DNA of 20,058 nucleotides, from IMG/VR virus record IMGVR_UViG_3300018079_000043, positions 1 to 20,058 of that record. The stretch is one strand, 5' to 3'. Source of the DNA: a virus. The translations under genes were made by a program, and so were the position numbers. Below the pieces are notes generated by a model. That model was given only the letters and a program-made list of their open reading frames with translations, was not told the origin of the DNA and ran no database searches. Position 1 is the first letter of the stretch; the number at the start of each line of letters is the position of its first letter. This document shows positions 2,203 to 20,058 of the stretch, in pieces.

Positions 2203-2258
2203 CCAAAAGAAAAGGGCCTGTCGAGGTGTCGGCCCCGACAGGCCCTTGAATCTTTTGG
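2203..2258 (-). terminator. Long hairpin with U-rich flank between portal and protease genes
   Basis: A perfect 12-bp stem (2212-2223 with 2236-2247) closes a 12-nt loop. A further 8-bp outer stem (2203-2210 with 2251-2258) lies beyond a small asymmetric internal loop. Read on the minus strand, the GC-rich inner stem is followed by TTTTCTTTT, the form of an intrinsic terminator. It falls between portal stop and protease start, where genes to either side are co-oriented and should be made together. It may therefore act as a partial terminator, a processing site or an mRNA-stabilising structure that sets portal versus capsid dosage. Confidence 0.65.
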
Positions 2259-2321
2259 TCTCGGTTGTGAGAGCCGCTGCGCTGGCCGGCGCCGCGGCGG
2301 AACTACGTCTCCGTCAGTCCG

Positions 2322-4790
2322 TCATGCGGCCTCCTCGGCCGCTTCTACATTCGGCGCGAAGTCCCGGCGGCAGTGGGGATGCCCGACCGGGTACTCGTTG
2401 AACTTGTCCAGCGTCCAGGTCTCCCCGTTCACGCCGCGCTGCCCGTCGTCGTGCCCGTCCTCGAGGCAGCCTGGCCCGTCCAGGACCGTTCCAGTCTCGA
2501 CGCCGGCGGCGCGGTAGGTCTCGGCCGCTCCCTGGTTCACCGCGATTGCCACCTCGGTCCGGGCGATCATGTCGGCGCGGGTGTCCCAGATGGCGCCGCT
2601 CTCGAGCTCCGCGGCGAGCTGCTTGCCGGTCCAGCCCTCCTCGGTCGCCTTGGCGACGACGTCGTGGATCCGCTGGCGCACCGTCTTGGACACGGCCCAC
2701 TCGGCATTCGGGTTTTTCACCAGGGTGCCGTCCTCGAGGCGGCGCATCCCGACGAGCTCGGCCGCGCGCTCCTCGGCGTAGGCGGTGGCAGCCTCGTCCA
2801 GGAGGCCGAAGGAGACCCCCTCCCCCGGGATCTGCTGCTCGGCGAGCGTCCCCCCCTCGGCGAAGGCGTCAGCCAGGCGAGGCTCGACCTTCCCCTGGAA
2901 GACCTCCCACTGCATGGCCTTGTCGATCTCGTCGTCGGGGGGCTGGCCAGCGCCCGACTCGTCGCCGGCGGCGCGCTCCTGGGCGGGCTCCTGGTAGTAG
3001 CGGAGGGCCAGGGCGGCGATCTCGGGGGCCCGGTCCTTGAAGTGGGCCAGGGCCTCAGCGCGCAGGCTCCGCTCGAGCCGGATCCGCTTCCTGGCCTGCA
3101 GGAGGGGCCGGCGCGCCCGGGCGAGGACGTGGAAGCCCCACAGGACGTCTTCCCTCGAGGAGGCGTGCTGCAGCCATTCGGAGAGCGCCAGGCGCACGGC
3201 GCTGGGGATGGCGGTGGTCTCGAAGGCCCGGCGCGCCCGACCCTTCTCGACGTCCTTGAGGGCGACCTTGCGCCAGCGCTTCAGGTCATCCTGGGCGGCG
3301 CGCGCGAGCCCCGGGATGGCCAGGCGCTCGGTGACGGGAGCGTCCTTCTCCTTCCCCTTGGCCGGCGGGTCGCCCGCGGCGGGGTCCTCACCGTCCCCCG
3401 GCGGTGTGGCGTCCGGGGCCATCGCCTGGCGCTGCTCGTCGCTCAGAGCCTTCTTCCCTTCGGACTCCCGGACCTCGTCCTCGGTGTAGATGCCCAGCTC
3501 GACGTACTTCGCGTTCTTCTCGAGCTGCAGGCGCTCGTCGGCCTCTTTCTCCTCTTTCCAGATGAACTCGATGCCCTCGAACCCCAGGAACTCCTCGATC
3601 TCCTGGTTCAGGATCCCGGCGATGAACCCCTTCCGGACCTTGGTGCCCGAGTCGGATTCGCCGGCGTCGGCCTGCTCGCCCGTGGCCCGGTTCATCATCT
3701 GGACCACGGGCAGCGGGGACACGTTGAAGGCGGCATAGATGTCGCGCTTCAAGGCTTCGTCGAACTCGCGGGACCAGGTGTCGTGGCCCCGGGGGTTCTC
3801 GAGACCGGTCCCCTCGCCTCCGGCCATGAGTCGGAGCCTCGATCGGAGCTGAGGATTGCCCACCAAGAGCTGGTCGAGGATGGTCTGCGCCTGGTCGATC
3901 TGTTCGGGCGACCAGGTCTCCGGGCATTTCCAGAAGGCCTCGGGGACATTGCCCTCGGTGTAGAAGCCGAGGTAATGCAGGTAGCGTCGCACGTAGAGGT
4001 TGATCGTGGGGATCAGCCGCTCGATGGGGCCTTCCCCATACGGCGTCCACGTGCGCGGGAACATCGGCTTGTAGACGAGCTCGGCCTTCGCCACCCGATC
4101 CGGCTGGAATGGATCGGGCGTGTGCCAGGGCATCGTGAACTCGGACTCGACGCGGCCGAACCCCACCTGCTGGTACGCGGGGAAGGGCGGCGCCGGCGGG
4201 ATGCCGTGGAAGTCCACCAACGGCTTGATCGTCGAGCCGTCCAGGATCAGGAGCGCGTGCGGCGTGCCGTCCATGAGGCGCTGGCGATAGATGGAGAGGG
4301 CGTCGATGACCAGGACCTCGTCCATGAGCATGGCCAGCCAGGCCTGAAAGTCGTGGTGGCGGTCGGGCCGTTTCAGGAATTCCTTCACCTCGGCGATCGC
4401 GCTCGTCTCTGATTGGCTGTTGTCGTCCTTCGCCTTCACGTCCCATCCGAAGCCGAGGACCTCGCCCTTGACGTCCTGCATCGCATTCTTCACGGGGTCG
4501 CAGATGGAGGCGAGGTTGCGCAGGATCTGGAAGGGGGTGAGGCCGCCCGTCTCCCCGCGCGGCGTGAAGGCCAGGTTGTAGCCGGCCCAAGGGAACCACT
4601 GGCGCGGCTCGGTGCCAGTCGGAAGGGCGGGCTTGAGCGGCTGGCCAGGCGGCAGCTCGCGCCCGGTGAAAGGATTGTCCGCGCCGCCAATCGGCCGATT
4701 GTCCGGCCCGTAGAGGATCGGAGCCAGGGCCGTCTTCACGTTGAGCGGGGTCTTCGAGATCGCCTGGCCTGGGTTCAGGGCGGGGCTCAC
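2322..4790 (-). CDS. Portal protein fused to a MuF-like head morphogenesis domain
   Basis: This 822-residue protein is much longer than an ordinary portal (about 400-550). Roughly residues 20-450 are portal-like, with the YGEGPIERLIPTINLYVRRY helix region typical of these rings and an acidic, lysine-rich linker near 440-490. The segment after that (LKRWRKVALKDVEKGRARRAFE) matches the variable middle of many long portals. About residues 610-815 look like the Mu gpF head-morphogenesis domain: MIARTEVAIAVNQGAAETY, then GPGCLEDGHDDGQ and the Cys/His end PVGHPHCRRDF. The portal forms the dodecameric DNA gate and MuF proteins act in early head assembly. ATG at 4790 overlaps the terminase stop by 4 nt (ATGA). 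A single open frame covers both parts, so the fusion is read directly. Confidence 0.85.
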   Translation of the reverse strand: MSPALNPGQAISKTPLNVKTALAPILYGPDNRPIGGADNPFTGRELPPGQPLKPALPTGTEPRQWFPWAGYNLAFTPRGETGGLTPFQILRNLASICDPVKNAMQDVKGEVLGFGWDVKAKDDNSQSETSAIAEVKEFLKRPDRHHDFQAWLAMLMDEVLVIDALSIYRQRLMDGTPHALLILDGSTIKPLVDFHGIPPAPPFPAYQQVGFGRVESEFTMPWHTPDPFQPDRVAKAELVYKPMFPRTWTPYGEGPIERLIPTINLYVRRYLHYLGFYTEGNVPEAFWKCPETWSPEQIDQAQTILDQLLVGNPQLRSRLRLMAGGEGTGLENPRGHDTWSREFDEALKRDIYAAFNVSPLPVVQMMNRATGEQADAGESDSGTKVRKGFIAGILNQEIEEFLGFEGIEFIWKEEKEADERLQLEKNAKYVELGIYTEDEVRESEGKKALSDEQRQAMAPDATPPGDGEDPAAGDPPAKGKEKDAPVTERLAIPGLARAAQDDLKRWRKVALKDVEKGRARRAFETTAIPSAVRLALSEWLQHASSREDVLWGFHVLARARRPLLQARKRIRLERSLRAEALAHFKDRAPEIAALALRYYQEPAQERAAGDESGAGQPPDDEIDKAMQWEVFQGKVEPRLADAFAEGGTLAEQQIPGEGVSFGLLDEAATAYAEERAAELVGMRRLEDGTLVKNPNAEWAVSKTVRQRIHDVVAKATEEGWTGKQLAAELESGAIWDTRADMIARTEVAIAVNQGAAETYRAAGVETGTVLDGPGCLEDGHDDGQRGVNGETWTLDKFNEYPVGHPHCRRDFAPNVEAAEEAA

Positions 4791-11465: not shown

Positions 11466-11719
11466 GGCCTGAACCCCGTCAGCGACAGGAAGTGCCGTCC
11501 GATGATGCGAATGTGCTGCGCCGCCTCCGACCGTGACGGGAAGCCGAGCCAACCGAACCACGCGCGCTGACGGCGGCGTCGCGGTGGCCTGGCTGGACGG
11601 TGAATGGCGGGCGTCGCGGTCGTCTCTCCGCTGACCGCGGTATCGATGGGGTTCTCTGCCGGCGGTGGCGCCGCCCAGGGCCTCTCAGGTTTCATTTTCT
11701 GAATCGTGTCGTTGTCCAT
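11462..11719 (-). CDS. Hypothetical basic protein, 85 residues
   Basis: ATG 11719 with GGAGG eight nt upstream and a TGATG overlap with the pentapeptide gene. The middle is Pro/Arg-rich (RPARPPRRRRQRAW) and the end FGWLGFPSRSEAAQHIRIIG is helical. It may bind nucleic acid through the basic patch; nothing further can be said. Confidence 0.6.
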   Translation of the reverse strand: MDNDTIQKMKPERPWAAPPPAENPIDTAVSGETTATPAIHRPARPPRRRRQRAWFGWLGFPSRSEAAQHIRIIGRHFLSLTGFRP

Positions 11720-12366
11720 CAGGCTGCCTCCTTCGGTTGCGGTCTCTTCACGAGCCCCAGTGCGGCGAGGTCCTTCTCGAAGAGGACCTTGCAGCGGTGC
11801 ACGCGGAACTTCCCGTCCGTGGCGATCGGGATCGCCGCGATGTCCGCTGCCGTGAACTCGACGACGAGAATCCGATACCCCTCGCGCCAGCTCTGCATCG
11901 CCCAGTCGAGCGTGCAGAGGTTGATCCCCGCCGCGCACTGCACGCGCTCGTCGGTGTTGGCCATTTCCACCTCGACGCTATCGCCCACGGCGTAGGCCAG
12001 TCCGCCGTTGAAAGGCCCGATGCCTTCCGCCGTGACGAGCTTGTAGGCGCGGATCGGACCGGGCTGCTCCAGGAGAATCCGCAGGGGCGTGCAGCGGTTC
12101 GGATCGATCCCCTTGGCCCCGACCAGCGAGGCCCCGTCCAGCGAGGCCCCGTCCAGCGAGGCCCAGTTCAGCGAGGCCCCGACCAGCGAGGCCCGGTTCA
12201 GCGAGGCCCCGACCAGCGAGGCCCCGTCCAGCGAGGCCCAGTTCAGCGAGGCCCCGTCCAGCGAGGCCTTCTGCTTGACTGCCATCTCGACGGCGAGCTT
12301 CAGCGACTCCGTCTCGCAGCTGAACAGCACGCCGCCGTCGAACCAGGACTTGATCTCGAATTTCAT
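11719..12366 (-). CDS. Pentapeptide-repeat protein with a DUF5758-like C-terminus
   Basis: The protein has 215 residues. Residues 34-83 are ten pentapeptides of the form A-S-L-x-x, where the last two residues switch among DG, NW, VG and NR; the next five residues (AKGID) break the pattern. Such repeats build a right-handed quadrilateral beta helix. The remaining 130 residues (IRAYKLVTAEGIGPFNGGLAY, CAAGINLCTLDWA, YRILVVEF, GKFRVHRCKVLF) resemble a domain often found behind pentapeptide repeats in phage proteins. The ATG at 12366 overlaps the upstream stop (ATGA); a longer frame to 12942 is an Arg-rich shadow. Ten blocks are too few to cap DNA gyrase confidently, so a DNA-mimic role is speculative. 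Confidence 0.85.
   Translation of the reverse strand: MKFEIKSWFDGGVLFSCETESLKLAVEMAVKQKASLDGASLNWASLDGASLVGASLNRASLVGASLNWASLDGASLDGASLVGAKGIDPNRCTPLRILLEQPGPIRAYKLVTAEGIGPFNGGLAYAVGDSVEVEMANTDERVQCAAGINLCTLDWAMQSWREGYRILVVEFTAADIAAIPIATDGKFRVHRCKVLFEKDLAALGLVKRPQPKEAA
12121..12270. repeat. Ten tandem 15-bp units encoding the pentapeptides
   Basis: The core CAGCGAGGCC recurs every 15 bases from 12124, ten times, with variation only in the four bases between cores. Each unit encodes one pentapeptide. The near identity at DNA level suggests recent duplication. Because the unit is a multiple of three, gain or loss of copies keeps the frame. Confidence 0.95.
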
Positions 12367-12743
12367 GAATCCTCCAGGTCGTCGGTGTATGGCAGGTAAC
12401 TTCGGCGGACGGCAGGCGCCGCCTCGCCGATGGGACGGAGATCGTTCGGCTTCGACAGCCTGGTCGGCTGGGGCGGTGGAGGAGGCCATGGTTCCCCGGG
12501 GTCCACACGAACGAGCGGAACTAGAGCCGGATCCTTCGCCTCCGCGTCCAGCCTCTCCCGCTCGATCTCCAGCTCCTCCCGGGGGCCGTCGTCCACGCGC
12601 CGCAGGATCGGCAGGTGGCGGATGTAGAAATCCCTCGGGGCAAGCGCCGGGGCCCCGAGCATGCCCATGTACCACTCGCCCCGCCGCGGCGGCCGCTCCT
12701 CGCCCGTCTCCTCGAAGCGCATCTCGGCTGTGACCTGGCTCAT
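12363..12743 (-). CDS. Hypothetical protein, 126 residues
   Basis: ATG 12743 overlaps the upstream stop (ATGA) and the stop overlaps the pentapeptide start. The protein is acidic to mixed, with GEWYMGMLGAPALAPRDFYI, a charged helix (REELEIERERLDAEAKD), a Pro run (WPPPPPQP) and an acidic end. No family recognised; a structural adaptor or flexible linker protein is possible. Confidence 0.6.
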   Translation of the reverse strand: MSQVTAEMRFEETGEERPPRRGEWYMGMLGAPALAPRDFYIRHLPILRRVDDGPREELEIERERLDAEAKDPALVPLVRVDPGEPWPPPPPQPTRLSKPNDLRPIGEAAPAVRRSYLPYTDDLEDS

Positions 12744-12958
12744 TCCCCGCTCCCTGGAATTCCGTGCACGCCGTCGAGACGCAGGACCTCCACCATGACG
12801 CGCTCTGCCGCGTCTTCCTCGCCGCCGTCGACCAGGACCTGGACGGCCCGCACCAGGTACGGGCGGATCGCCGGGTACTGCTCCGGACTGCACGCCACGC
12901 GCTTGCCCTGGTAGGCGGTGCGCACGGCCTGGCGGGAGACACGCACGCGCTCGGTCAT
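12740..12958 (-). CDS. Hypothetical protein, 72 residues
   Basis: Helical small protein (RQAVRTAYQGKRVACSPEQY, then AIRPYLVRAVQVLVDGGEED). ATGA overlaps on both sides. No family recognised, and no signal or membrane segment. Confidence 0.6.
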   Translation of the reverse strand: MTERVRVSRQAVRTAYQGKRVACSPEQYPAIRPYLVRAVQVLVDGGEEDAAERVMVEVLRLDGVHGIPGSGE

Positions 12959-13787: not shown

Positions 13788-14534
13788 CTACCGTCCGGAG
13801 ACCGAATCCCTCTTGAAGAACCGGACGCCAGCAAGGACCGGGAGTTTCCCCTCGGGGACCTGGCCAAGCCTCTCCTGGGCGCGCCCGGCATTGAGGACAA
13901 AGCCACGCCGAAGCTCGTACGCCTCGGGAAGCGCGACGATTAGCGCAGCCGGGTCCGTGACCTCGAAGTCGAGGACCTGGGGATAACTGGCGGCGCCGAA
14001 GTCGGTGCGCGTCGTCTTCGCCGGCTCGGCGACGGGCAGGGGCGCGACAACCTCCTCCGCGGCGGCCGCGGCGTACTCCACGGTCTCCGCCGGCGTGAAG
14101 TTCCCAGCAGCCTTGGCGTCCTCAGCTGCGCGCGTCTCGGCCTCCTGGCGCTGGCGCTCGACATCGGCCGCGATACGCCTGTTCTCCTCGTCGACGCGGC
14201 GCTGCTTCTCCTTGCGCCAGGCGAGGAGCTGCGCGTCGACGTACTTCACCGCGACGTCGATCGCGTCGGTGATCTTTCCGAAGGCGGCGTTGACCTCCTT
14301 CACGAACGCGTTGTGCGGCTGGACTTCCGTGGTCCTCGATTTCTCGGCGGTGCTCTCGTGACCCTTGAGGATCTTCCGCGCGACGATGGCGCGCTCCTCG
14401 GTCTGATCGTCCTTGACCGAGATGGCCTCGGCCGCCTTCACGGCTGCCGGGACGCGCGCCTGCAGCTCGGCCAGCTTGGCGGCCGTGTCGGGCGCCAGGT
14501 CGTATTTCGGGATGGGTGCGGGTTGGGTGCTCAT
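13788..14534 (-). CDS. Coiled-coil protein of the recombination block
   Basis: The protein has 248 residues from ATG 14534 (GGAGG nine nt upstream, ATGA overlap). A long charged helix runs from about residue 20 to 135 (VKKDQ-type heptads, DAQLLAWRKEKQRRVDEENRR and a Gln/Glu/Ala-rich continuation). An Ala/Pro linker and a C-terminal beta-rich domain (TRTDFGAASYPQVLDFEV, then GKLPVLAGVRFFKRDSV) follow. Proteins of this build are often found beside phage single-strand annealing and exonuclease genes, including DUF1351-like proteins. I infer an accessory role in recombination or replication; no catalytic motif is visible. Confidence 0.6.
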   Translation of the reverse strand: MSTQPAPIPKYDLAPDTAAKLAELQARVPAAVKAAEAISVKDDQTEERAIVARKILKGHESTAEKSRTTEVQPHNAFVKEVNAAFGKITDAIDVAVKYVDAQLLAWRKEKQRRVDEENRRIAADVERQRQEAETRAAEDAKAAGNFTPAETVEYAAAAAEEVVAPLPVAEPAKTTRTDFGAASYPQVLDFEVTDPAALIVALPEAYELRRGFVLNAGRAQERLGQVPEGKLPVLAGVRFFKRDSVSGR

Positions 14535-14854
14535 GATGCGACGTCCTCCATTTTCGATTTGACCCAGGCGAGGATCTCCGCCTCGGTCAGAGTCCAGGAG
14601 TATCCGAAGCTGGAGACGAAGTGGCATTTGAATGGCTGGTGCAGGTGGAAGGCGAGACGATCGTCGCCGGTGGCATCGGCGAGGAGCGCGAGAGCTAACT
14701 GCGCCGGGCCGCTCCCGCTATAGCCCCACTCAAAGCCGGTCGGTGAGTGGTTCCAGAGATCGGTCCGGGGATTGAGCGTTGTGATGCGGGTCCCGACCTC
14801 AACCTGGACGCGCTGTCCACCTGCGCCTGCCCGCGTGCCGCTGTAGATCTTCAT
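14531..14854 (-). CDS. DUF6166-type protein
   Basis: The protein has 107 residues. The diagnostic stretch NHSPTGFEWGYSGSGPAQLALALLADATGDD followed by LHQPFKCHFV matches the DUF6166 pattern as I know it (long motif at about residues 32-62, given here in two blocks only for its key residues H33, S34, G37, W40, G41, Q49, D57). Function of the family is unknown; it occurs widely in phages and mobile elements. ATG 14854 has GGAGG eight nt upstream and an ATGA overlap with the nuclease. Confidence 0.75.
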   Translation of the reverse strand: MKIYSGTRAGAGGQRVQVEVGTRITTLNPRTDLWNHSPTGFEWGYSGSGPAQLALALLADATGDDRLAFHLHQPFKCHFVSSFGYSWTLTEAEILAWVKSKMEDVAS

Positions 14855-15882
14855 GCGACGTCCTCCTGCTTCCCGGCCGCGGCCACGCCGGCGATCTTCA
14901 CTTCGGCGTACTCGACGTCCTTCACGACGTAGCCGCTGCGGAAGCGCTTCACGATCGAGACGGCGAAATCCCCGCAGATGGCGCGCATCAGGAAGTCCTT
15001 GGCCTTCGCGGCTTTCAGCTTGGCCTCGGGGATGGTGGCCTTCAGGCGCGACTTGATCCACTTGTCGTCTGCCTCGTACTCCTGGTGGGATTTCAGGTTC
15101 TGCGCCCGGCGCCTCAGCCGGTCGAGGAGCTCCGGGTCGTCCAGGAAAAGGGCCCCCTGCTCCTCGATCGGCGGCTGGCAGATCACCCCGAACGCCCAGC
15201 AGGTTCGGCAGGTCGTCGGGTCCTTGGCAAACGGCGGGGGCGTGCCGGCCTTGACTGCCGCGTCGACCTGCTCTCCGAGCTGCAGCGCCAGCTCGGCATC
15301 GTCCAGGTGGTCATCGAGCACGACCTGGATCGGCTTGAGCTTGCCCTGGCACGTGAGAAGGAGGATCCCCTCCGGGGCGCTGCGCTGCAGGAGGTAGACG
15401 AGGACCTGCCCGCGATACTTCCTGGTCCACCAGAAGTGCTCCAGGTCCTCGTAGGAGTCGATCTCCTCGAAGACGAAGTCCGAGACCTCCTTCGACTCGA
15501 CCGGGACGCGCGCGCCGTCGAACACCAGGGCGAAGTCGATGATCCCGGTGTAGACGAGCCGGCCGTCGCGCTTGAACGCTTCGATGGGGGTCTCGACGTC
15601 CACGACCTCGAAGCCCAGGTCCTCGAGGTAGCGGCGCGCCGCCGCGGCCGCGAGCTTGCCGTCCGCCATGCGCTCAGATCCCTGGATGCCAGGGTCCCGG
15701 CGCGCCAGCGGATTCGTGACGCCGTAGTACATCTCGCGCGCGCAGTCGAAGTTGACGTCGCTGGCGATGGGGTTGCGTGGCGATACACGGCCGGCGGTCC
15801 TGGCCCGGCGCTTCTCGTGCTCCTTGCGCCAGAAATCCTCCCGGCGCGTGTTGAAGGTCTCGATCAGCTTCTGCGCTTGCAC
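14851..15882 (-). CDS. PD-(D/E)XK exonuclease, Cas4/RecB-like, with four-cysteine cluster
   Basis: The protein has 343 residues. It has the RecB-type nuclease motifs GIIDF (D116), VESKE (E129, K131) and YRGQVLVYLL (Q159, Y163). A single N-terminal Cys in CAREMYY (C47) pairs with a C-terminal CRTCWAFGVIC (C225, C228, C235). Four cysteines in this split arrangement are the iron-sulfur signature of Cas4 and AddB nucleases. It probably resects DNA ends for annealing-type recombination with the upstream protein. GTG 15882 has GGGAGG seven nt upstream. The C-terminal 100 residues (helical, with KATIPEAKLKAAKAKDFL) are typical of phage members. There is no CRISPR array or other cas gene here. Confidence 0.82.
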   Translation of the reverse strand: MQAQKLIETFNTRREDFWRKEHEKRRARTAGRVSPRNPIASDVNFDCAREMYYGVTNPLARRDPGIQGSERMADGKLAAAAARRYLEDLGFEVVDVETPIEAFKRDGRLVYTGIIDFALVFDGARVPVESKEVSDFVFEEIDSYEDLEHFWWTRKYRGQVLVYLLQRSAPEGILLLTCQGKLKPIQVVLDDHLDDAELALQLGEQVDAAVKAGTPPPFAKDPTTCRTCWAFGVICQPPIEEQGALFLDDPELLDRLRRRAQNLKSHQEYEADDKWIKSRLKATIPEAKLKAAKAKDFLMRAICGDFAVSIVKRFRSGYVVKDVEYAEVKIAGVAAAGKQEDVA

Positions 15883-18134: not shown

Positions 18135-18355
18135 GGCTTCACCTTGGCGAGCGCCGCGGCGCGGGGGCCGTACCACCAGCCGTCGTATTCCTTGGCCGCA
18201 TGAAGCAGATCTCGTTTATCGCGTAACGTCGGCGCGTTGACTGGTTCCGGTGCGGCCTTCAGCGCAACGATCAGCAGGTCGCGGTCCTGGATGATTTGCA
18301 GCGAGCTCCTGCGCGCCGCGAGCTTCCCGATGCGGATCGCTTCGGAGGTTTTCAA
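18131..18355 (-). CDS. Hypothetical protein, 74 residues, TTG start
   Basis: The only start that fits the coupling pattern is TTG 18355, which shares TTGA with the previous stop. The frame upstream to 18901 runs through the preceding gene and the structured leader and is not protein-like. The product is helical (KTSEAIRIGKLAARRSSLQI, then DLLIVALKAAPEPV). No family recognised. Confidence 0.5.
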   Translation of the reverse strand: MKTSEAIRIGKLAARRSSLQIIQDRDLLIVALKAAPEPVNAPTLRDKRDLLHAAKEYDGWWYGPRAAALAKVKP

Positions 18356-18606
18356 TCCATCACCCCGGCGGCGCGGAGCCGCTGCGCTAGATCCCCGCGA
18401 TTCCAGGCAAGGAATCCGGCCACCTGGTCGGGGAAGCCGAGCCGCAGTCGATCCAGGTTGCCGTCGTCGGCGCGCTTGATTGCCTCCGACAGCGCTTGCT
18501 GGAAATCGCCGAGGAGGCGCCATTGCCAGCGCACGACCCACTTCTCGCCCTCGGTCCAGTCGGGCGAGGCGAGCATCTTGTGGACCGCCTCCATCATCTC
18601 GTCCAT
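18352..18606 (-). CDS. First early-operon gene, hypothetical 84-residue protein
   Basis: ATG 18606 has GGGAG five nt upstream, directly behind a GC hairpin and UUU. The protein is helical and charged (EMMEAVHKMLASPDWTEGEKW, then NLDRLRLGFPDQVAGFLAW). No family recognised. It is the first gene of a run of five genes that all overlap by 1 or 4 nt, and it follows 1.1 kb without genes, so its translation may set expression of the whole early set. Confidence 0.6.
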   Translation of the reverse strand: MDEMMEAVHKMLASPDWTEGEKWVVRWQWRLLGDFQQALSEAIKRADDGNLDRLRLGFPDQVAGFLAWNRGDLAQRLRAAGVMD

Positions 18607-18616
18607 GTCGGCTCCC

Positions 18617-18656
18617 AAAGGCCGGCCCGGCTGCGTTGGGGAGTACCGGGCCGGCC
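18617..18656 (-). terminator. Terminator-like hairpin (possible attenuator) before the first early gene
   Basis: A perfect 11-bp GC stem (18656-18646 with 18630-18620 on the minus strand) closes a 15-nt loop and is followed by UUU, then at once by GGGAG and the ATG at 18606. Only three U residues follow, so termination would be partial. It could mark the 3' end of the structured RNA upstream, with read-through giving the early operon. Confidence 0.45.
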
Positions 18657-19267
18657 CACAGCAGGCTGATCGCCGGTGTGGGCGGCGATCCGGAAGGCGG
18701 AGAGAAGCTGCGTTGGCAACGCTCCGGTCGTACCTTCCGCGGGGAGGGCGGCCCCCCGGGTCCGGTTGCTCCAGATGGAGCGCACGTTGAAAGCCCGCCG
18801 CCGAAACCAGGCCCGGGATCCTGACGGAGTCGGTATCCGGCGGCGGGCAGTCCCGCCTCTGGACTGTGTCCTCGTGGCGGGCAGGATGAATGCGAAGCCA
18901 CGGCATTTCGTCGCGCCGCAGCCGGGCTTCACGGTCCCAGTTAGCTGACCTCCCGTGGTTAGCGGTTGGTTTGAAAAGCAAGCGCCGAGCGACAGGGATG
19001 AATGCGTACCGCCGACCCGTGTGGAGTACGAGGGGTCATGCTCGGGCCGGCGGCCTGTCGATGATCCGCGCCTCGCCCAGTTAAGGGGGCACGGTATTGC
19101 GGAGCGTCGCTCATGCGGACCGAGCGGCGCAAGAGGGGGGAATGCGGGGCACGCCAGAAGATGAACGGAAGGGATAATGCCTGAAACGCCATCTAGGCGC
19201 GACTTACACGGCGTCTCACCTATAGAAATCCACTGTAATCCTAGAGCGGCGCGGCTTTCCAGAGACG

Positions 19268-19279
19268 TAAGATATCTTA
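19268..19279. promoter_or_regulatory. 12-bp AT-rich palindrome
   Basis: TAAGATATCTTA is perfectly self-complementary and stands out as AT-rich in a GC-rich setting. It may be a protein-binding site or the tip of an RNA helix; no regulator is known. Confidence 0.3.
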
Positions 19280-19381
19280 TCGGACCCTGGCCCGAACGGC
19301 GCGTGTAACTGTGTCCTGCGGCTTCGGTTGCCACGAAAAGGTTACCCCTCGTATGTGAAAGGCTTGGCGGACGTGGATTCC

Positions 19382-19501
19382 AGAGACACGAAGGCCCGCC
19401 CGGAACGCTTAGCGTCAAGGCAGGCACACCGGCGAGGTGATGCCGCCACCGGGCGGGCCAGGTTGTCTCTATGTCGTGTGGTGCTCATGCATCACCTCGC
19501 C
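19382..19501. other. Interleaved 18-bp and 13-bp helices (pseudoknot or switch)
   Basis: Arms in plus order: b 19382-19388 and 19393-19403, a' 19431-19443, b' 19449-19459 and 19464-19470, a 19489-19501. b pairs with b' (7 bp, 4x4 internal loop, 11 bp) and a' with a (13 bp), which is the order of an H-type pseudoknot. A competing nested fold exists: hairpin 19405-19415 and an 11-bp hairpin 19419-19447 with two bulged A residues inside the b/b' helix, giving a three-way junction. Both folds are fully Watson-Crick, so two states are possible. Confidence 0.7.
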
Positions 19502-19508
19502 TGACGCC

Positions 19509-19537
19509 TATTTACGCCGACGCGACTCCCCTGTCAA
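19509..19537 (-). promoter_or_regulatory. Candidate early promoter (TTGACA, 17 nt, TAAATA)
   Basis: On the minus strand a perfect TTGACA (19537-19532) and TAAATA (19514-19509) are exactly 17 nt apart. The predicted start near 19502 coincides with the first base of the 13-bp helix arm. TTGACA itself is flanked by a 5-bp dyad, TCCCC/GGGGA (19542-19538 with 19531-19527), a possible operator over the -35. It would drive the structured RNA and the early genes. Confidence 0.5.
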
Positions 19538-19546
19538 GGGGATCCT

Positions 19547-19583
19547 GGAAAAGAATTCGCCGGGGGCCCCAGCGGACCCCCGG
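19547..19583 (-). terminator. Terminator-like hairpin ending the upstream transcription unit
   Basis: Stem 19583-19577 with 19566-19560 (7 bp, GC only, 10-nt loop), followed on the minus strand by CGAATTCTTTTCC. The T-run begins some bases late, so efficiency is uncertain. An alternative hairpin (19579-19583 with 19590-19594) would compete for the same bases. It lies between the partial gene at the right edge and the early promoter. Confidence 0.4.
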
Positions 19584-19723
19584 ACCCTCCCGGGATGGCG
19601 TTGTCAGATTGTTGGCGTTCGGAGCGGAAAGTACGGCGAGAGCGTCAGGCGGTCAATGGGGGTGAAGACCCTAATCTCGGGTAGGGTGAAATTCCTGGTC
19701 TACGTGGTCCACGTACGTGGCGC
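19584..19723. other. Gene-less spacer downstream of the right-edge gene
   Basis: No gene is credible here. A 15-bp perfect dyad TACGTGG-T-CCACGTA (19701-19715) lies 8 nt past the stop of the right-edge gene. A 6-bp hairpin ACCCTA/TAGGGT (19668-19673 with 19682-19687) follows. A 10-bp arm (19642-19651) is the inverse of 19498-19507. A plus-strand frame (19437-19826) crosses it but looks random. Confidence 0.4.
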
Positions 19724-20058
19724 TCACCACTCCCGCCTGAAACCAACCTTCGCCCGTGCGTCGTCCTGGGTGACCTCGGCCGAGAAGTTTACGTGCCGCC
19801 ACAGGATGATCCCGCCCTCGCCGTAGACCCCGGGCGCCTGGTCGAGCACGGACCAGGTAGCCCCGCCCTCCAGGAAGGGCCGGAACCACCGGGGGCGCTC
19901 CGCCCGGGCGGCGACGAGCTGCGCGCCGAGCCTTTCGATAGCGACCGTGGACCGGACGGTGCAGCTCGTCGGCTCGCAGGTGTAGCCGTCGACGCACCAA
20001 GCCGGGCGGGCCCGGCAGTCCGGCTCTGCTCCGAAGGCGACCAGTCCGGCCAGGAGCA
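19724..20058 (-). CDS. Secreted Cys-rich protein, 3' part (start beyond the right edge)
   Basis: The frame is open from 20056 to a TGA at 19724 (110 residues) with no start in the window. It begins LLAGLVAFGAEPDC, which reads as the end of a signal peptide, and continues CRARPAWCVDGYTCEPTSC, four cysteines in 18 residues likely to form disulfides. The rest is an alpha/beta domain (VRSTVAIERLGAQLVAARAE, GGIILWRHVNFSAEVTQDDA) ending FRREW. I recognise no family. Two other frames are open here but give Arg/Pro-rich shadows; this one has the natural composition. Its product would act outside the cytoplasm, for example in lysis or host-surface change; that is a guess. Confidence 0.65.
   Translation of the reverse strand, partial: LLAGLVAFGAEPDCRARPAWCVDGYTCEPTSCTVRSTVAIERLGAQLVAARAERPRWFRPFLEGGATWSVLDQAPGVYGEGGIILWRHVNFSAEVTQDDARAKVGFRREW

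Follow-up and report, generated by a model that had tools for sequence, protein, structure and literature searches.

What occupies positions 18607-19723 of this phage genome, where genes are otherwise densely packed? The window (the whole stretch of 20,058 nucleotides analysed) is a 20-kb linear virus record of 61-74% GC. When the codon model was run over the whole window, 29 of 29 genes fell on the minus strand. Read from right to left, a gene fragment (19724-20056) comes first and the tract second, followed by a series of small genes and the genes for a nuclease-like protein and an exonuclease. Beyond further genes lie the large terminase, a portal-MuF fusion and the head protease. The phage is distant from isolates, with the top portal match at about 32% identity across half of the protein. 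Three further observations were made in the window. The portal carries a fused MuF-like C-terminal domain (822 aa, 2322-4790), and the same annotation is found in an Arthrobacter phage. The gap between the portal-MuF and protease genes (2187-2321) contains a nearly symmetrical, very stable hairpin, A-rich on its 5' flank and T-rich on its 3' flank. Over 150 nt its fold z is -6.0 (plus) and -6.9 (minus), and it resembles a bidirectional terminator within the head-gene operon. A 407-aa protein (11719-12942) contains pentapeptide repeats, and its C-terminal part matches RIIB lysis-inhibitor families.

The genes on both sides of the tract were analyzed on the minus strand. The upstream fragment (19724..20056) comprises the C-terminal 110 aa of a protein truncated by the contig end. 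Its codon log-odds were positive, searches of Pfam and PHROG gave no match, and the upstream operon ends with its TGA. On the other side, the downstream operon opens with an 84-aa gene (18352..18606, codon score 30.8), whose ATG at 18606 comes soon after GGGAG and whose product matched weakly to phrog_15317, a family without assigned function (E 3.5e-4). Further downstream follow the nuclease-like protein (14851-15882), with 25% identity to a podovirus protein annotated 'crispR-associated', and an exonuclease gene belonging to PHROG 10477 (13788-14627). With these two genes lying there, the term 'early operon' used in the preliminary description is plausible.

That description had called the tract gene-less, and this was borne out. 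Using a codon log-odds model trained on genes of the same phage, every open frame on both strands of 18613-19723 scored as non-coding. A 277-aa minus-strand ORF (18594-19427) had a total of -75 log-odds with a best segment of 6.3, compared with 31 for the 84-aa gene directly downstream. A Pfam search of the tract's frames gave no credible match. A protein-coding reading is thus disfavoured by codon statistics, and introns and rRNA or tRNA fragments were ruled out by codon statistics together with Rfam. By the codon model, the non-coding tract exceeds 600 nt, the length taken here as a mark of large structured phage ncRNAs in general.

Stem counts demonstrate that the tract is a real feature, well above chance. 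At least eleven perfect stems of 5-13 bp had been noted previously. The tract contains exactly four stems that are perfect over 11-13 bp and span no more than 150 nt (18620/18656, 18793/18848, 19393/19459 and 19431/19501), against a mean of 0.05 in dinucleotide-preserving shuffles (n=3000), none of which reached four. Likewise, five stems of at least 10 bp within 200 nt were counted in the tract versus 0.4 in shuffles, and stretches of equal length sampled elsewhere in the window had two at most. Stems of 7-8 bp showed no clear excess over shuffles, so only the long stems count as evidence; from the earlier list the four long ones stand, and those of 5-8 bp are individually uninformative. The hairpin at 18691-18739 was predicted as described before, with probabilities of 0.99 for the outer and 0.82 for the inner stem. 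Direct repeats of at least 10 nt were marginal (four versus 1.1, a number reached by 2.7% of shuffles). Two minus-strand copies of CGCATTCATCC (18894-18884 and 19006-18996, span 18884..19006) form a candidate repeated loop motif.

Perfect Watson-Crick stems are identical on both strands, whereas G-U pairs and loops differ by strand. The excess of fold stability is assigned to the minus strand, on which all genes lie; no strand had been given before. The fold z of the whole tract was -4.84 (minus) versus -3.29 (plus), and that of 18607-19510 was -6.16 versus -2.67 (48 shuffles each). The value of -6.16 is slightly favoured by choice, because the limit of 19510 was set after the promoter-like box had been read; the whole-tract z is unaffected. 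With the strongest 5' and 3' hairpins removed (18665-19380), z was -3.40 minus and +0.12 plus, and 0 of 100 shuffles were as stable on the minus strand. Therefore, the signal is more than that of terminator hairpins. This central z of -3.4 is modest taken alone, because coding control stretches of 897 nt ranged from -2.4 to +3.0. For 18853-19380 we obtained -2.93 minus and +0.89 plus, and for 18612-18852 a value of -3.58 on the minus strand. The minus-strand ensemble had 174 pairs above p 0.9 versus 83 in shuffles, with 0 of 40 shuffles having as many. The plus-strand ensemble was also well defined (157 pairs), so the definiteness of pairing, high on both strands, cannot settle the strand. In summary, the tract is more stable on one strand than its composition predicts.

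Read along the minus strand, the tract contains an upstream stop, a terminator-like hairpin, a TTGACA box, a fold of about 890 nt, a 13-bp hairpin, GGGAG and ATG. A separate transcription unit would have its parts in this sequence. The terminator-like hairpin (19583-19560) has 10 pairs, 9 of them GC, and a T-rich tail CGAATTCTTTT to 19550; its function as a terminator is putative, because terminator-like sites in the region do not exceed the shuffle number. The promoter-like element TTGACA-N17-TAAATA (19508..19537, TTGACA at 19537-19532) has a perfect -35 and a poor -10, and its role is likewise putative. It was not accepted by an automatic sigma-70 scan. A 10-nt inverted repeat CGCCTGACGC/GCGTCAGGCG (window 19498-19507 and 19642-19651) brackets the terminator-like hairpin and overlaps the first 5' helix; it may serve as an antiterminator arm or as a site for a protein.

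The candidate structured RNA would span about 890 nt (18615..19503), its ends being placed by the promoter-like box and the last hairpin. At its 5' end, helix S1 (19431..19501, arms 19501-19489/19443-19431) has 13 perfect bp, and helix S2 (19382..19470, arms 19470-19449/19403-19382) has an 11-bp core and a 7-bp outer part. The two are interlocked, and a crossing pair of helices of at least 11 bp occurred in 1 of 3000 shuffles. If both formed at once, the result would be a pseudoknot whose connecting stretches measure 18, 5 and 27 nt; the interlock may thus represent a pseudoknot or two mutually exclusive states of a switch. Next comes a long central arm (18853..19375) in which helices are nested; pair probabilities are 0.93-1.00 for 19325-19318/18901-18894, 19303-19296/18919-18912, 19261-19254/18979-18972, 19053-19044/19018-19009 and 19218-19208/19192-19182. 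The 3' stem-loop array (18683..18848) comprises 18848-18836/18805-18793, 18739-18733/18697-18691 and 18781-18777/18772-18768. The last hairpin (18619..18657) has 13 bp followed by UU(U). It is terminator-like and a candidate terminator or processing boundary; a terminator scan did not accept it.

The preliminary description had placed the tract within or beside the GOLLD and ROOL RNAs and had proposed an Rfam search with these, OLE and all other models. Membership was not supported. No family reached its gathering threshold and nothing credible was found in the region up to E=5, and the GOLLD, ROOL and OLE models had no match to the tract up to E=10. The Rfam thresholds are 150 bits for the GOLLD conserved domain (416 positions) and 99 bits for ROOL. 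The ROOL single-model search is weak alone, since control genomes also gave no positive; a cmscan with permissive filters agrees with it. A match to Phage C4 antisense RNA (RF01695; 22 bits, E 0.31, plus strand 19425-19511 over S1) is attributed to chance, because it lies far under the 45-bit cut-off and on the wrong strand for the fold signal. As far as models can do so, known RNA families thus appear to be excluded. A tRNA search found none within the 20-kb window, which is a genome fragment only. tRNA genes near GOLLD loci are usual, not universal, and many GOLLD and ROOL loci have them.

Homologues were sought in several collections. By blastn, neither the tract against phages nor the tract with its flanks against plasmids gave a homologue, and no relatives of the proteins flanking and near the tract were found in viral_contigs. 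A search with the peptide read from the tract's long minus frame gave none either. The portal-based search returned two contigs, both too short (L002, L003), and portal in genome_contigs returned none. The two-copy CGCATTCATCC motif was absent from viral_contigs; in genome_contigs it had 19 matches, mostly tandem or coding repeats, whose likeness to the tract was confined to the motif. The terminase search yielded ten relatives (L003 and L023-L031), which had no significant similarity to the tract; coverage of the tract's position was shown in 0 of 10. Absence of the RNA from relatives is not established, because some terminase relatives (L024 and L025, for example) stop before the corresponding place.

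Gene-free gaps in the longer relatives (L030, L043) and the corresponding place in a podovirus were examined for analogues, and these three loci were rejected. L030 2220-2834 folds strongly and lies inside a repeat-bearing 311-aa ORF (2223-3158). Two DNA repeats occur in that ORF, one of them tandem and palindromic (AACCCCTAAAGGGGTT, coding for KPLKGL-like units) and the other rich in GATCT, and the ORF folds strongly on both strands. In the 39-kb relative L043, no gene is called over 1.2 kb directly upstream of the terminase (11681-12875); this stretch has one good tRNA (54 bits) inside, and its fold is not unusual. The podovirus L046, which has the nuclease-like protein in common, shows small ORFs at the corresponding place and a z of 0.07 on the tested strand.

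Giant phage RNAs can be very abundant and take about 1 kb of scarce genome; to our knowledge, the function of none is known. GOLLD is borne by phages and prophages, is often longer than 800 nt and has multiple stems with pseudoknots, its role being unknown (PMC12286853). The candidate resembles GOLLD (RF02032) in being phage-borne, large and multi-stemmed, and differs in that the model is unmatched to E=10, no sequence is in common and no tRNA lies in the window. ROOL, also of phages and prophages, measures about 0.6 kb and is pseudoknotted; it is non-essential, and one strain contains it in very high abundance. Both GOLLD and ROOL assemble RNA-only cages (PMC12286853). Like ROOL (RF03087), the candidate is phage-borne, but it is longer and has no model match to E=10. 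OLE (RF01071), a bacterial RNA, is likewise large and ornate; its model does not match the tract. In ICP1, a phage without tRNAs, an RNA of about 800 nt is the top-abundance transcript and comes from an ORF-less space of about 1 kb at the lysis cluster (PMC7567579). Size and ORF-less space make this RNA the closest working parallel we could draw, with the difference that the ICP1 RNA is known by its transcript and the candidate by sequence alone. The ICP1 space adjoins the lysis cluster, whereas the candidate's neighbours have no such identification. The tract showed no nucleotide similarity to anything in the 'phages' collection, which may not include ICP1's record.

The best reading of the tract is a new, so far singleton, large phage ncRNA working like GOLLD, ROOL or the ICP1 RNA. 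We give a probability of about 0.5 to a large structured RNA that is free and transcribed from its own promoter, a reading which we favour over a leader, a DNA element or decay. From a promoter just past the upstream operon's terminator, a dedicated ncRNA of about 890 nt would be transcribed leftward. It would fold into two interlocked long helices at the 5' end, a central arm that is long and branched and, on the 3' side, an array of stem-loops, closed near its ends, and would be ended or trimmed at the 13-bp hairpin directly ahead of the next operon's first gene. Like GOLLD, ROOL and the ICP1 800-nt RNA, it would be abundant in infection and act through its shape as a free RNA, perhaps in an oligomeric cage. 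The earlier proposal of a large structured RNA heading an operon thus has the support of fold statistics, of the strand bias and of the anatomy; its GOLLD/ROOL membership does not. Defined ends of a free RNA are not established, because the promoter -10 is poor and only two or three U's follow the last hairpin.

The main rival, which we consider unlikely, is a long regulatory leader. Here, the RNA would be the 5' part of the downstream operon's mRNA, with S1/S2 as a switch and GGGAG hidden in a loop-SD pseudoknot. The fold stops 13 nt ahead of the first gene's start codon, and the CUCCC loop of the last hairpin (18643-18639) complements the ribosome site GGGAG (18616-18612) with -8.9 kcal/mol, although a 5-nt complementarity of this kind is not rare by chance. 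Forced folding of the 5' domain gave two good alternatives (S2 -66.8, S1 -56.7 kcal/mol). Pairing is also possible between the arm 19651-19642 and 19507-19498, a helix that would enclose the terminator and overlap S1, and the last hairpin has no strong U-tract behind it. However, control of such a type does not need the central arm, and the attenuators and riboswitch leaders known to us are all far shorter than 900 nt.

That the tract acts as DNA, as a replication origin, packaging site or operator cluster with inverted repeats bound by proteins, is improbable. Such an element would suit the apparent operon boundary, the several inverted and few direct repeats of 10-11 nt, and perfect stems that are present on both strands by construction. 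DNA function does not, however, predict a strand-specific fold excess, and operators do not feature long-range nested pairing; no tandem iterons were seen, and the tract has a GC of 0.62-0.68 with no AT-rich unwinding region. Least probable is decayed or chance sequence, a gene remnant with a few terminators and no RNA function. This would fit a singleton without homologue in any collection searched. It does not fit four long perfect stems where 0.05 are expected, a strand-specific fold z, or the close succession of a terminator, a promoter-like box, the fold and a ribosome site; moreover, phages rarely keep 1 kb of junk.

Under the favoured reading of a free structured RNA, the tract RNA may be a relative-in-kind of the giant phage RNAs. 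Tentatively, at somewhat less than even odds, it would be the founding member of a new large phage-RNA family that has no sequence relationship to GOLLD, ROOL or OLE; it would have its own promoter and a 5' domain of two interlocked helices, and may self-assemble as they do. If it is an independent family without common sequence, phages would have evolved giant RNAs repeatedly. Its high GC content and its defined interlocked domain at the 5' end would then make it useful for testing if cage formation or another property is the point that these RNAs share.
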